This document shows, in pieces, positions 1,762 through 6,924 of a stretch of 64,000 nt of DNA. The position numbers were made by a program, and so were the translations under genes. The DNA comes from Mariluticola halotolerans. Its GTDB lineage: Bacteria; Pseudomonadota; Alphaproteobacteria; Rhizobiales; Devosiaceae. How positions within the stretch are numbered: position 1 is the stretch's first letter; every line of letters starts with the position of its first letter. The stretch is from contig NZ_CP090960.1 of assembly GCF_021611515.1 (NCBI RefSeq), positions 1,798,001 through 1,862,000 on the forward strand, in the 5' to 3' direction. Under the pieces are notes generated by a model. It searched no databases, was not told where the DNA came from, and saw only the letters and a list, made by a program, of their open reading frames with translations.

Positions 1762-3048
1762 TTACTGGAATACAGCGTCCGGGCTATCAAGGCTGTCAGA
1801 ACCTTCAATGCTGACATCGCCGAGATTGAGCGCGGTCACGATGCGCTCAATTGACGTGGTCTGGTCGACCAGCGCGTCAATTGCCGCCATCACCGTCGCA
1901 TTGCCCTCATCATTGGCTTCGCCAATCATCTGGTCATACGCTTCAACGGTTTCGGCACGGGTCACCATGTCCCCCATGCGCGCCATCGTGATGGAAAGCT
2001 TGGCCTTCAGCTCTTCATCAAGCGCTGCGTCGGTATTGGCGACATAGGCAGAGAGCGAGGGGCCTTCAACAACCGAACCATCCACACGGGTATACTGGCC
2101 GAGATAGACATTCTGAATGCCCTTGGCGTCATAGTAATGCGAGTTGTGCGTGTTGTCGGAGAAGCAATCATGCTCTTCCTCGGGATCATGCAGCAGCACA
2201 CCAAGCTTCATGCGCTCACCGGCAAGTTCACCGTAAGAGAGTGAGCCCATGCCGGTCAGAATGGTGGCAATGCCGTCGTTATCATTGCCATTGACCACCG
2301 CATTGCGCGCTGCGCCGCCTTCCTGCCAGTTTGCGGTCATTTCCTCGAGGTCCGCGATCAGCAAGTCGGTTGCCGCACTCAGATACTGGCCGCGGCGGTC
2401 ACAATTGCCATTGGTGCAATCGGTCAGGCTGAAATCCGTCGCGGGCCGCGTGCCTGCGCCGGCATCCGTCCCATTGAGGTCCTGCCCCCAAAGCAAAAAC
2501 TCGATGGCGTGGTAGCCGGAAGCGACATTGGCCTCGTTCCCCCCTGCTTCATGCAGCATTTCGGCGATTGCCTCGGGCGTGATCTCGGGCACTTCAATTT
2601 CTTCGCCATTGATCAGCAGTTTGCCGCCAGCGATGACATTGGCCGTGTAAAGCTCATTGCTGTCGCTCTCGGTGCCGTAAGAAGGGTCGACATAATCAAT
2701 CAGGCCCTCATCCAGCGGCCAGGCATTTACCTTGCCTTCCCAGTCATCGACGATGGCATTGCCAAAGCGATAGGCTTCGGTCTGCTGATAGGGGTTGCGG
2801 GCGGCCAACCAGGCTGCACGGGCGGCAGCGAGCGTCTCTTCAGTGGGGTCGGCCAGCAGGGCCGCGACAGCCGTTTTCAGTTCCTTTGCCGTTGTCAGCG
2901 AATCCTCATACCCGGCGGCGGCAATATCGGCATAAGTTTTCAGAACTGCGCTTGCCGATACCGTCTCAGCCAGAACCGAGGGACTGGTGAGTGCGGTTGT
3001 GCCGAGCGTCAGGGCGATCAGGCCAGCGCGTAACAGGGATCTGGTCAT
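1762..3048 (-). CDS. Imelysin family iron-regulated periplasmic protein
   Basis: The 428-residue product starts at 3048, chosen because GGAAGGAG lies seven bases upstream; an ATG 24 bases further up lacks such a site. Residues 1-28 form a signal peptide ending in SVLAE. The imelysin signature GxHxxE is present as GYHAIEFLLWG at residues 178-188. Imelysin-like proteins (ICMP, IrpA, and the M75 domain of EfeO) are induced by iron limitation in several bacteria and are thought to bind iron or cooperate with redox partners at the membrane; there is no proven peptidase activity. An Irr-type box lies about 215 bp upstream. It heads the iron block and is followed by a terminator-like hairpin before bfd. 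Confidence 0.92.
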   Translation of the reverse strand: MTRSLLRAGLIALTLGTTALTSPSVLAETVSASAVLKTYADIAAAGYEDSLTTAKELKTAVAALLADPTEETLAAARAAWLAARNPYQQTEAYRFGNAIVDDWEGKVNAWPLDEGLIDYVDPSYGTESDSNELYTANVIAGGKLLINGEEIEVPEITPEAIAEMLHEAGGNEANVASGYHAIEFLLWGQDLNGTDAGAGTRPATDFSLTDCTNGNCDRRGQYLSAATDLLIADLEEMTANWQEGGAARNAVVNGNDNDGIATILTGMGSLSYGELAGERMKLGVLLHDPEEEHDCFSDNTHNSHYYDAKGIQNVYLGQYTRVDGSVVEGPSLSAYVANTDAALDEELKAKLSITMARMGDMVTRAETVEAYDQMIGEANDEGNATVMAAIDALVDQTTSIERIVTALNLGDVSIEGSDSLDSPDAVFQ

Positions 3049-3369
3049 TCGTGTGTCTCCTTCCGGGGGCAAGGCCCGGGTTTCAGGTCACCCGTTGGTG
3101 GAAGGAAAAGCACTAAAAGCCCAAGAATCTGGCGTTGGGCGTACCAGCCGCATGGGCCGATGCTTCCGCTTCGATCAACGGGATTAAAGGTCCCGCCATC
3201 AAGTTGGCTGAGGCATTGCTATCGGCGTGATTGGCTCAAATCAAGTTATTTTTCAATAGCTTAGAACAGTTCTAAACTACAGGCCATTGATACCGAGCGG
3301 AAAAACCACGCCCCCAAGCCGACGCTCATTACTCCGGCTCTGATGAGAGGGCGACAATGTTTAGTCTTT
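3049..3369. other. Intergenic region upstream of the imelysin gene
   Basis: This 321-bp gap holds no credible gene. It contains the Irr-type palindrome at 3261-3275 and the imelysin ribosome binding site. I could not place a convincing -10/-35 pair. Confidence 0.7.
3261..3275. promoter_or_regulatory. Candidate Irr-type iron control element (ICE)
   Basis: A perfect 15-bp palindrome TTAGAAC-A-GTTCTAA is centred at 3268. It closely resembles the TTTAGAA-N3-TTCTAAA element bound by the heme-responsive regulator Irr in Hyphomicrobiales and Rhodobacterales. It sits upstream of the minus-strand imelysin gene, a typical iron-regulated target. Binding by Irr is inferred; the irr gene is not in this window. 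Confidence 0.7.
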
Positions 3370-6030
3370 TCAGGCGCCTATGATCGACCAGAAGCCAAGC
3401 CGCTTTTTGGCCAGATGCAACATCAGCACACATGTGCCGATTGTTACCATGGCTGTCGCGATTGCCGCCCCGATTGCACCAAAGGCGAAGATCAAAATGA
3501 TATTCAGCACAATATTGGCCAACATGCTGACCAGCACGATTCTGGCGACGGCATTCTGTTCACCGGTCATTGAGAGGGTGAACTTGAGTGGGCCCATTGC
3601 TGCCTGCACGACCAGACCGAATGTGAGCACCAAAAGAATGGGCCATGCGGCGGTGAATTCGGCACCGAACAGCGCCAATGCACTGCCGCCGAAAATTGCA
3701 AGCACTGCCGCAATGAGGGCCGTGGGATAGAATGACTGTGCGATAAAGCGGCGTGACAGCGCCTTGATCGCCGCCTTGTCGTCACGGGCGAAGGCGGCGG
3801 CAATTGGCTTGGCGGCGGCGGATGACACCGCGATATGCACGAAGGCAACTGTCGCGGCGACTTTGGCGGCAACATAATAAAGCCCCACCACATCCATGGG
3901 CACGAAGAACTGCAGGATGATGATATCAGCAAACGACAGGAACAGCGTGTTGCCTTCGACAAGTGTTAGGGGCACGGCGGTGCGCACCCAGTTTCGCGTG
4001 TCCCATTGGGGCGTGGCATCGCCAAGATAGCCCCTCAGGCGCGTCGTGATCATTTGCCATTGGGTCAGAACCACCAGCGCAGATGCCGCAAGCGTGAGGC
4101 CCAGCGCACCGGCTGCATCAAGTGGCCAGGCCAGAGCCAGCGCAGCGAGAGCCAGTACAAACAAAACCGCAGGTCGCAACACAAAGCCGGGCGCATAGGC
4201 AAGCAATTGCCATCCCGCGCCACGGGCCACACCCTTGCCCAGTTCGGTAAAGGCAAAAAGCGGTAAGCAGACAGCCCCCACCAGTGCGGCGGGCACTAGC
4301 GCAGGTGGCGCAAACATGGCGGCTGCACCACCCATCAACATGGCGAAAATCAATGCCGCTGCGCCGACAAACCCGGTTGTCACCCGCAGAAATGCACGGG
4401 CATGGCCCGCATTGTCACGTTCCATATAGGTGGCAAGAAACCGGGTTGAAGCCATTGTGAAACCGAGTGGTGCCAGCCCACCGAGAACAATCACCCAGGT
4501 CCAGATCGCGGCATAGGTGCCAAATTCGGCGGCACCGAGGGCACGCGCCAAAACGATGTTCAGCGCAAAGCCGACACCAACGCCAGCAATCCGCGCGAAC
4601 AGGGTTTTAACGCTGTCATTACCCCAGAGACGCGCCAGCGGACTGGCTTTGACCGGCACCGCCTTCCCTTGCTGCGCGGTATCATCAGCAAGATCGGCAA
4701 ACATGCGCTCCTCGCTGGTGATGCCGAGACCTTGCGTCCGGCGTTCAGGACCACCATCGGATTGCCAACGCACCCGGTCGAGCAGACGTTTGGGGGCTGT
4801 CACATGAGCGGCGAGGCCGGGGACCATATCGTCGGTCGCCAGTTCGTCCACGTCTTCCTTGCGGCAGAGCCAGCTCCAGCCCCGTCGCGCAATCTCACCC
4901 AGAACCAGGAATGGTTTTGAAAAAGCACTGATTTCCGGGTCGCCGAGAAGATGCAATATGGATTGCAGGGAGTTCGAGCTGCGCGCGCCGTGCTGATAGG
5001 TATCCGGCACATCCACCTCACCGGTGACCATCATGTCGTACAGTTTTGCGGGGAAATCGATCCCGGCGGCAATGGCAAGTGCCACTGACCCCCAGAAACG
5101 CGCATTGACCTCAAGCAATACCCAGTCGCCGGTCGCCTTTTCCTGGCGGAACTCAAACATGGCAACGCCATTGAGCTTTGTCGCCAGCGCGATCTTTTTG
5201 CAGGCAGCGAACATTTCGGGATCGAGCGGTTCACTTATCCGCATCGAACTGGCACCGCCGCCGGGCTTTTCGCGCAGCCGGCGATGCTGGAAGGCAACGA
5301 GAATTTCGCCATTCCGGGCCAGAACGGAAATGCCCAGCCCGGTGCCGTGGCCAGAAGCAGGAAAACCGGACTCGACAAGGAAATGGTCCCGATTGGTGAT
5401 ATCTGCCAGAACGGCATCAGCGGCTTGCGCGCTTTCGACCGCGGTCACGCTGCCCCTGTCGGACAGGTTTTCCAGCGTATAGGACTGACGGGACTTGATA
5501 TAAAGTGGCGTGCCAAGATCAGCCACAAGGCTCGCTCCGGTATCCGTTTCGGACAGCGCGCGGCCTCTGGCGACCGACACCTGACATGCCTCAGCCACCG
5601 CCCGGGTCTCCAGCTTGTCGAACAGGCGCGTCATGGCCGCGTCGCCGGGATAGGCGAGCACGCCCTCTGCGAACGCTGATCTGCTTTGCCATAACGGCAA
5701 TAGCGAGCGTTCAGAGCAGGGGATAATCAGATCATAAGCGTAAGTGGCATCGAGCGCCTGCACAGCTTCAACCCATGCGCATGTATCCGGCTCAATGCGG
5801 GGCAAATGGTGCGTTGCGGCGACAAACCGGGATTTGAGCGCTGGCGCGTGCCAGTCGAACGGCGCGGCATGCACTTCAAGACCCTTGCGCCCCAGCGAGC
5901 GGACAATGGCCAGAAAGGATTGTGCATCGTCGCCAATGACCAGAACCCGGCCCGATCGCGCGGTCGTCCGATTCTGCCTATCTGTCTCTGCAGATTTGTT
6001 TTTTTTATTCTTGGCGTCAGGTGCGGCCAT
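3370..6030 (-). CDS. ATP-grasp / polysaccharide flippase-like fusion protein
   Basis: This 886-residue protein has two unrelated halves. Residues 28-340 form an ATP-grasp ligase module: a Rossmann-like pre-domain (RVLVIGDDAQSF), a central nucleotide region and the metal-binding EVNARFWGS at 307-315 with E307 and N309. Residues 340-464 are a linker with few features. Residues 465-886 are a multi-spanning membrane module typical of Wzx/RfbX-type flippases of the MOP superfamily, opening with LNIVLARALGAAEFGTY. AGGAG lies eight bases before the start. ATP-grasp enzymes join carboxylates to amines or thiols; flippases move lipid-linked glycans across the inner membrane. Neither a substrate nor glycosyltransferase neighbours are visible. 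The two domain calls are solid; the joint function is unknown. Confidence 0.85.
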   Translation of the reverse strand: MAAPDAKNKKNKSAETDRQNRTTARSGRVLVIGDDAQSFLAIVRSLGRKGLEVHAAPFDWHAPALKSRFVAATHHLPRIEPDTCAWVEAVQALDATYAYDLIIPCSERSLLPLWQSRSAFAEGVLAYPGDAAMTRLFDKLETRAVAEACQVSVARGRALSETDTGASLVADLGTPLYIKSRQSYTLENLSDRGSVTAVESAQAADAVLADITNRDHFLVESGFPASGHGTGLGISVLARNGEILVAFQHRRLREKPGGGASSMRISEPLDPEMFAACKKIALATKLNGVAMFEFRQEKATGDWVLLEVNARFWGSVALAIAAGIDFPAKLYDMMVTGEVDVPDTYQHGARSSNSLQSILHLLGDPEISAFSKPFLVLGEIARRGWSWLCRKEDVDELATDDMVPGLAAHVTAPKRLLDRVRWQSDGGPERRTQGLGITSEERMFADLADDTAQQGKAVPVKASPLARLWGNDSVKTLFARIAGVGVGFALNIVLARALGAAEFGTYAAIWTWVIVLGGLAPLGFTMASTRFLATYMERDNAGHARAFLRVTTGFVGAAALIFAMLMGGAAAMFAPPALVPAALVGAVCLPLFAFTELGKGVARGAGWQLLAYAPGFVLRPAVLFVLALAALALAWPLDAAGALGLTLAASALVVLTQWQMITTRLRGYLGDATPQWDTRNWVRTAVPLTLVEGNTLFLSFADIIILQFFVPMDVVGLYYVAAKVAATVAFVHIAVSSAAAKPIAAAFARDDKAAIKALSRRFIAQSFYPTALIAAVLAIFGGSALALFGAEFTAAWPILLVLTFGLVVQAAMGPLKFTLSMTGEQNAVARIVLVSMLANIVLNIILIFAFGAIGAAIATAMVTIGTCVLMLHLAKKRLGFWSIIGA

Positions 6031-6264
6031 GTCTTTAACTCCTGCCGCGTTTTAACCAGCGCGCGGTTTCAAACTCATTAAAGATTGCGAATACCTCACC
6101 TTCCACGGACATGAATGCAGACACGGTTTCGTGAAGAACACCGCGTTCGCCGGTGACATCCGGACAACAATTATGCTTTCAGGCCTTACAAAGCCGAAAC
6201 ATGCAACTAAATTATTGGTAACATTAGGGTTTTATTGGATCGACTGGTATTATCACCCCGGCGA

Positions 6265-6924
6265 TCACGCGTCGTCGCCAGCACCGCTTTTAGGCAATTG
6301 CCGAAAGAAATCCGCATAGCCCTGACTGCGGGTTGCATTGAGGATTTCGGCCAGTTGCGCCACCGGTTCGTTCGACCAGTCAGCGCGCAGATCGACGGCG
6401 GGATAGGGTTCACTGGTATATACTTTTAATGCCGCCGAGCGGATACCCCGATAATCTCCACCTTCAGCGGCGCCCGCCCGCAAAGCTGCGAGAAGCCTGT
6501 CTTCAAAGGGTTGCGTGCCAGAAGCCTGATAGGCTTCCAGCATGGCTTCAAACACATGGGTGCTCACAAGCATATTTCCGGCAACGCCCACCCCATCGGC
6601 CACCAGCGCGCCGCTGGCAGCTTCTGCCTTGCTGCCTGTCCAGGCAACCGCTGGTCCCGTTGTGCCAATGATCACGCATTGGCGGCTTTCGCGCCCGGCA
6701 TCTGCCGCCGTCAGCTGGTCCAGCACCTTTTGCGCAGACACGCCGCTTCCCAGCAAATCCAGCCCGATGCTGCCGTAAAGAGGATTGGTCAGGCTTTGGG
6801 TTGCAATCGCGCCAACACCAGCACGGGCATGGGGCACCAGAGAGCCCACCACCGGACCGCCAGTGGCCGTGGCAACGCCAAAAGCCCCCGTGTCCGTGTC
6901 TCTGGCTACGATAGAAAACGTCAT
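6265..6924 (-). CDS. DUF1028 family protein, putative Ntn-type hydrolase
   Basis: The 219-residue product opens with MTFSIVARD and contains VATATGGPVVGSLVPHARAG, both typical of DUF1028. Members have an Ntn-hydrolase-like fold, and removal of Met1 would leave Thr2 at the N-terminus as a possible nucleophile; catalysis is unproven here. There is no signal peptide, so it is cytoplasmic. It is transcribed divergently from an oligopeptide-type ABC operon and shares with it a region holding a large inverted repeat, suggesting joint control. A sensible idea is amide hydrolysis of the imported compound, but the substrate is unknown. The ribosome binding site is a modest AAGG. Confidence 0.85.
   Translation of the reverse strand: MTFSIVARDTDTGAFGVATATGGPVVGSLVPHARAGVGAIATQSLTNPLYGSIGLDLLGSGVSAQKVLDQLTAADAGRESRQCVIIGTTGPAVAWTGSKAEAASGALVADGVGVAGNMLVSTHVFEAMLEAYQASGTQPFEDRLLAALRAGAAEGGDYRGIRSAALKVYTSEPYPAVDLRADWSNEPVAQLAEILNATRSQGYADFFRQLPKSGAGDDA

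Follow-up and report, generated by a model that had tools for sequence, protein, structure and literature searches.

Why should a ligase and a lipid flippase be made as a single protein? The window analyzed here, a 64,000-nt stretch of the Mariluticola halotolerans genome, carries on its minus strand a gene (3370..6030) that had been read from its letters as an ATP-grasp enzyme fused to a Wzx-like flippase, i.e., a membrane-tethered ligase that could modify a lipid-linked glycan or peptide at the point of export. Our follow-up favors, with a probability of roughly 50%, an account in which the gene is the fused form of a conserved two-gene unit that would modify a lipid-linked envelope precursor and then flip it. 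We describe below the architecture of the gene, its counterparts in related genomes, the company kept by related flippases, and the explanations that compete with this one.

One Reading Frame Joins an ATP-Grasp Domain to a MOP Flippase

The frame is ATG-initiated, extends for 886 aa without an internal stop, and is preceded by the Shine-Dalgarno (SD) sequence AGGAG (6039..6043, minus strand), which lies 8 nt ahead of the ATG and has an anti-SD pairing energy of -6.9 kcal/mol. Its product is laid out as an ATP-grasp domain (residues ~25-432), a disordered linker, and a MOP flippase resembling WzxE and MurJ (residues ~477-886), with one Pfam domain above its cut-off in each half. An NCBIfam scan of the whole protein gave weak matches, far below the cut-offs, to PRK12767-type enzymes, spore_V_B, and matE. 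The flanking genes, both on the same strand, encode an imelysin (Peptidase_M75; 1762-3072) and a DUF1028 protein (6265-6924) and are separated from the fused gene by gaps of >200 nt. Promoter and terminator scans near the gene produced results at chance level.

The ATP-grasp half (residues 25-432; 4735..5958, minus strand) was recognized by Pfam as ATPgrasp_Ter (PF15632; residues 234-347; 36.0 bits vs. a cut-off of 29.1). When the two halves were folded with AlphaFold as separate models, the ATP-grasp half had a mean pLDDT of 91.2, and its structure matches included a PurK-type phosphoribosylaminoimidazole carboxylase (10bm, Z 27.5), PylC with L-lysine (4ffl, Z 27.0, 298 residues, rmsd 3.1), an L-amino acid ligase (3vot, Z 26.0), and biotin carboxylase; the Foldseek list for the same model includes RizA and YwfE. 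An alignment of 79 sequences (A4; window protein included, one locus split across two frames, L157, excluded) showed K139, E293, E307, N309, and R311 to be invariant (79/79) and K179 to be present in at least 90%. We take these residues (two Lys, Glu, ExN, and Arg) to be those that handle ATP and Mg. By profile, the set aligns with pyruvate carboxylase and with 2pn1, and the metal and catalytic motif E307-V-N309-A-R311 (5098..5112, minus strand) aligns with EVNPR of pyruvate carboxylase. The catalytic residue set is thus intact. ATP-grasp ligases, as well as FemAB-like GNATs, form amides, and this half is probably an amide-forming enzyme.

The MOP flippase half (residues 477-886; 3373..4602, minus strand) matched Polysacc_synt (PF01943) at residues 478-743 (41.6 bits; cut-off 28.2) and was modeled with a mean pLDDT of 86.6. 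Its best structure match was WzxE (9g9n, Z 34.5, 394 residues, rmsd 3.4), followed by a MATE protein (6fhz, Z 31.8) and MurJ (6nc6, Z 31.7), so the fold is one shared with WzxE and MurJ. Profile searches of the PDB returned the teichoic acid subunit flippase 9xzn (E 1.4e-9), MurJ (8.3e-7), and WzxE (0.0013), whereas MATE proteins were absent at E up to 1; a hit to a sodium pump (E 0.1) was taken as a chance match. To our knowledge, none of WzxE, the teichoic acid flippase, and MurJ carries an ATP-grasp domain.

Hydropathy analysis gave 11 segments past residue 443, and the model aligns over 394 residues with WzxE, for which 12 transmembrane helices are reported (PMC11706664). The same study names Lys17, Arg44, and an Arg-rich tail as important in WzxE and has the Arg-rich C-terminus of WzxO157, a related protein, facing the cytoplasm (PMC11706664). 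Conserved positions in the window's flippase are R480, R496, R619, and D702, together with a basic tail, K875-K876-R877; the three arginines and the tail are kept in most or all of 11 aligned flippases that are paired with an ATP-grasp gene. The profile alignment to WzxE is weak (E 0.0013); with chain numbering taken as one ahead of that in PMC11706664, neither Lys17 nor Arg44 has a basic counterpart in it, R480 being placed about one turn away from Lys17 and W510 opposite Arg44. These key positions appear changed in that weak alignment, and we do not file the window's flippase as WzxE. Overall, the original prediction of an ATP-grasp fold, an E307/N309 metal site, and a Wzx-like flippase within one chain was upheld in each of its parts.

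The Linker and a Possible Internal Start

Residues 433-476 (4603..4734, minus strand) form the linker, of which 443-469 were modeled with pLDDT <50. Third-position GC of linker codons 433-470 is 0.66, matching the 0.67 and 0.65 of the two halves, and the linker therefore reads as coding sequence. It contains GAGGAG-CGC-ATG (4702..4713, minus strand; the ATG encodes Met443), a possible relic or live flippase start. Among 21 in-frame ATGs, that of Met443 has the strongest anti-SD pairing (-7.2 kcal/mol vs. -6.9 for the real start), with the caveats that its 3-nt spacing is short and that two in-frame GTGs pair better (-7.8). Given this strong SD-like site, a free flippase may also be translated from Met443.

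The Fused Gene Corresponds to a Gene Pair in Related Genomes

Relatives of the ATP-grasp half, drawn from named genomes, comprised the best 80 of 102 matches (79 loci), the weaker 22 lying outside all counts per 79 given here. In a tree of 79 rows, the window protein grouped with five Maritalea sequences (support 99/94) within a 13-member set (100/96), of which it is the only fused member. A separate flippase gene adjoins the ATP-grasp gene in 11 of the 12 others, and L088 is a probable twelfth: its adjacent membrane protein, which had no Pfam or NCBIfam match, resembles the flippase by profile over 112 columns (hhalign probability 84%; two control membrane proteins gave 0.2 and 0.1%). Gene order is reversed at L084. 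With that locus left out and starts taken from the longest ORFs, the genes of the pair overlapped by as much as 71 nt or lay up to 26 nt apart at 10 of 11 measured loci, and were separated by 94 nt in Thermopetrobacter. The paired flippases were not resolved as one clade in their tree, where L084 and L088 sat on long branches. Maritalea and Devosia have the same proteins as the window, in the same order and adjacent (ATP-grasp 42-46% and flippase 36-38% identical to the window's halves), but as two genes instead of one chain. A further gene is shared by two of the pairs, which it adjoins at L088 (4364-5821) and L084 (9399-10835); the L084 copy is weakly thymidylate-kinase-like.

No second ATP-grasp/flippase fusion was present among the matches listed in the flippase, family, class, order, and phylum searches. 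The genome sets of the flippase, class, order, and phylum searches overlap, and at most three (flippase), four (class, order), or two (phylum) candidate places were scored per genome, so that misses are possible. Within the family, eight of 136 genomes had the ATP-grasp gene at E <=1e-25 and at least 42% identity, i.e., the window's genome and seven others. Each of the seven encodes the flippase in a frame of its own beside the ATP-grasp gene, with the ATP-grasp match crossing stop codons in two of them; G411 has a distant ATP-grasp gene (34%). The ATP-grasp family was found in six of 397 genomes in the order search (at 1e-40) and in four of 385 in the class search, own genome counted in each, and neither search gave another matched frame of >667 residues. 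The phylum search (349 genomes, 1e-60) showed no other fusion among the matches listed, and a first contig scan with the full-length fused protein as query returned no match. Eleven genomes (one genus plus G014) had long frames of 887-1023 residues near flippase matches, and these were initially taken as ATP-grasp fusions; of the eight fetched, the seven scanned with Pfam proved to be flippase-GNAT fusions. Another long frame, at L076, had no Pfam match in its N-terminal part, and a GNAT match lay beside the gene.

Thus, of the architecture that was to be sought across Hyphomicrobiales, the two-gene pairing recurs, whereas the fused form was seen in the window's genome alone among the matches listed; the family search met no second genome of its genus. 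Separate genes in close relatives had been named beforehand as a mark of a fusion created by sequencing or assembly error. Such genes were found, but nothing in the sequence pointed to a sequencing error, and an assembly artefact, though possible, is not supported, since the coding-like linker and the near-finished genome (3.45 Mb in 2 contigs, 99.97% complete, 0 contamination, window on the 3.34-Mb contig) speak against it. The separate adjacent genes of close relatives suggest instead that the fusion, seen in one genome, derives from a pair that recurs, rather than being a conserved fused protein, and the short gaps, together with the SD-ATG in the linker, fit the loss of a stop codon between adjacent genes, though a fit is no proof. 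As far as sequence tells, the fusion is real and most likely derived from the conserved pair. We found no description of this architecture among the papers listed on ATP-grasp enzymes with flippases or surface polysaccharides, a set that does not include the ATP-grasp amidoligase survey PMC3268129.

The best-surviving alternative is that the fusion is an accidental run-on, in which a stop was lost in nature or in assembly, the tether is unneeded, and Met443 supplies free flippase, an account compatible with the function we favor for the pair. It would accommodate the separate genes kept by close relatives, the single fused example known, and the rank of Met443 among the in-frame ATGs. Against it stand the coding-like linker, the quality of the two-contig assembly, and the fusion of related flippases to a GNAT in at least seven other genomes (Pfam; see below), which makes fusion a recurring outcome. 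We regard a run-on as unlikely, although it deserves more weight than the two alternatives considered further on.

FemAB-Like GNATs Are the Usual Flippase Partners in Devosiaceae

All but one of 21 flippase loci from Devosiaceae (L037-L057) had a match to a FemAB-like GNAT profile within their 1.5-kb flanks, the exception, L051, being on a short contig; these 21 are the loci with good matches in the family search and represent a subset of the family's flippases. Second flippases in Maritalea and Devosia genomes had a GNAT match at three of four loci (L171 had none), and all seven GNATs checked with Pfam beside Devosiaceae flippases (L037, L169, L172-L176; four from the 21 loci and three from others) were matched. 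The window's own genome (3.45 Mb) has four PF13480 domains by Pfam, two of which lie beside its two other flippases; the custom GNAT profile missed both. A rough, after-the-fact estimate of the chance of both adjacencies is 1.2e-5. Outside Devosiaceae, GNATs flanked the flippase at four of the 24 loci sampled at order level (L009-L032), some of which are truncated by contig ends; this speaks against a universal flippase-GNAT rule. CAP-domain and D-Ala-D-Ala carboxypeptidase-like genes recur by the flippase at L009-L032 and L177-L180 (one of each checked with Pfam).

The association also occurs within single chains. All eight fetched frames of the 11 long ones mentioned above matched the GNAT profile (seven of the eight had trained it), and seven were confirmed by Pfam; the hosts are one genus of another family and G014. 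As in the window, a related MOP flippase (31-37% identical) is joined to an amide-forming type of enzyme, but the partner is a FemAB-like GNAT at the flippase C-terminus rather than an N-terminal ATP-grasp domain. The genes for these proteins (L069-L075, L077) seemingly stand alone among housekeeping-type genes, as read by eye at L069, L071, and L074.

A Predicted Modify-Then-Flip Unit

Flippases of this type have their N-terminus facing the cytoplasm. In the reading that we favor, the N-terminal ATP-grasp domain would lie in the cytoplasm, activate a carboxylate with ATP, and join it through an amide bond to an amine on a lipid-linked envelope precursor, after which the C-terminal Wzx-type flippase would move the modified product across the inner membrane. 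Fusion would tether the ligase to the flippase; most simply, it would have arisen when the stop codon between two adjacent genes was lost, and Met443 may still yield free flippase. The ATP-grasp enzyme would occupy the place held by a GNAT in other units. The original proposal, that a cell-surface glycan or peptide could be modified at the point of export, is partly supported: the architecture and both folds hold, but the fused form is not conserved, and the modification itself is a prediction. Weighing against the favored reading are the single genome with the fusion among the matches listed, the non-basic counterparts of Lys17 and Arg44 in the weak WzxE alignment, the weak spore_V_B and matE matches, the lack of one clade for the paired flippases, the few GNATs at order-level loci, the GNAT-free locus L171, and the two GNATs of the own genome that the custom profile missed.

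The window has no match to glycosyltransferase families PF00535 and PF00534, the initiating transferase PF02397, or Wzy_C (PF04932), and the nearest glycan-assembly match is a PF00535 about 37 kb outside it. The observation that no glycosyltransferases accompany the gene therefore holds, and a precursor would derive from elsewhere in the genome. One of the genome's two other flippases, a more distant one, has a glycosyltransferase and an initiating transferase in its vicinity on the second contig (109 kb). The suggestion of a self-contained unit fits with neighbors that are not glycan genes at one Maritalea locus (L062; four neighbors scanned with Pfam) and at Devosia and Rhodobiaceae loci (read by eye). 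We consider the precursor to be probably an undecaprenyl-linked glycan and less likely a membrane lipid.

The latter would make the protein a counterpart of MprF, the aminoacyl-phospholipid synthase-flippase, and is a variant of the favored explanation that agrees with the stand-alone arrangement and with the lack of glycosyltransferase matches in the window. MprF reportedly likewise joins synthase and flippase in one chain, but the window protein has neither of the MprF synthase and flippase domains (Pfam, E up to 1) and consists of an ATP-grasp enzyme and a MOP flippase. In addition, the best profile matches of the flippase half, the teichoic acid flippase, MurJ, and WzxE, belong to families that move polyprenyl-diphosphate substrates, and we hold a membrane-lipid substrate to be doubtful, somewhat more so than a run-on. 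Least probable is a small soluble amide or dipeptide made by the ATP-grasp half and exported by the MOP half, as by an L-amino acid ligase with an efflux pump: closeness of fold to such ligases (3vot, RizA, YwfE), the stand-alone unit, the second rank of a MATE by structure, and weak matE/MatE matches (Pfam MatE is also matched by the flippases of L083, above cut-off, and L135, below it) speak for it, but profiles find lipid-linked flippases and no MATE, the distant flippase of the same genome lies near glycan-assembly genes, and FemAB-like GNATs are the usual flippase partners in Devosiaceae.

Enzyme-flippase coupling is already known, and an ATP-grasp enzyme with a MOP flippase in one chain is a new form of it. 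The main interest lies less in this single fusion than in the pattern of a flippase with an amide-forming enzyme. We tentatively propose, with clearly less confidence than for the gene itself, that Hyphomicrobiales may have general 'modify-and-flip' modules, in which a MOP flippase is adjacent or fused to a dedicated amide-forming enzyme, and FemAB-like GNATs (using an aminoacyl-tRNA or acyl donor) and ATP-grasp enzymes (using a free acid and ATP) are interchangeable. The window protein would then be the one-chain ATP-grasp form, resembling MprF but built from unrelated parts, and would decorate a lipid-linked surface precursor with an amide-linked group as it is exported. If so, an uncharacterized ATP-grasp family would be tied to envelope export, one compact protein would allow ligase and flippase substrates to be worked out together, there would be reason to examine the surface glycans or lipids of Hyphomicrobiales for amide-linked decorations, and orphan flippases could be annotated by the rule of a flippase plus an amide-forming enzyme.

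The Wider ATP-Grasp Family

Pfam scans of 79 proteins (78 from the loci plus the window's) found ATPgrasp_Ter in all 79, LMWPTP in 61, GNAT in three, and a flippase domain in the window protein alone. The ATP-grasp-LMWPTP proteins, many of them in exosortase-type exopolysaccharide clusters, thus belong to the same ATP-grasp family as the window protein but have a low-molecular-weight tyrosine phosphatase domain in place of the flippase. Their neighbors, annotated from one representative per cluster, include glycosyltransferases, TuaB-like flippases, and, in some loci, XrtA/PEP-CTERM-type genes. Of the 79 ATP-grasp loci, 33 had a match to the GNAT profile, including four that had been used to train it. 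GNAT, ATP-grasp, and LMWPTP domains occur together in a single chain at L101 (6615-9692), L120 (4667-7510), and L125 (2896-5736).

At 46 of the 79 loci, the ATP-grasp gene has a gene for a protein of ~340 residues nearby, e.g., at L096 (9722-10753) and L131 (9740-10705). Its assignment as a polysaccharide deacetylase was set aside, as neither a deacetylase match nor any other convincing match was obtained with Pfam (four members) or NCBIfam (three members). Among solved structures, a peptidoglycan deacetylase (E 0.35) was the sole relative within E 1, and the protein is possibly a divergent deacetylase. Finally, one Devosiaceae locus (L068, 6380-8826) has two tandem divergent ATP-grasp genes by glycosyltransferase, Wzy-like, and FemAB-like GNAT genes.
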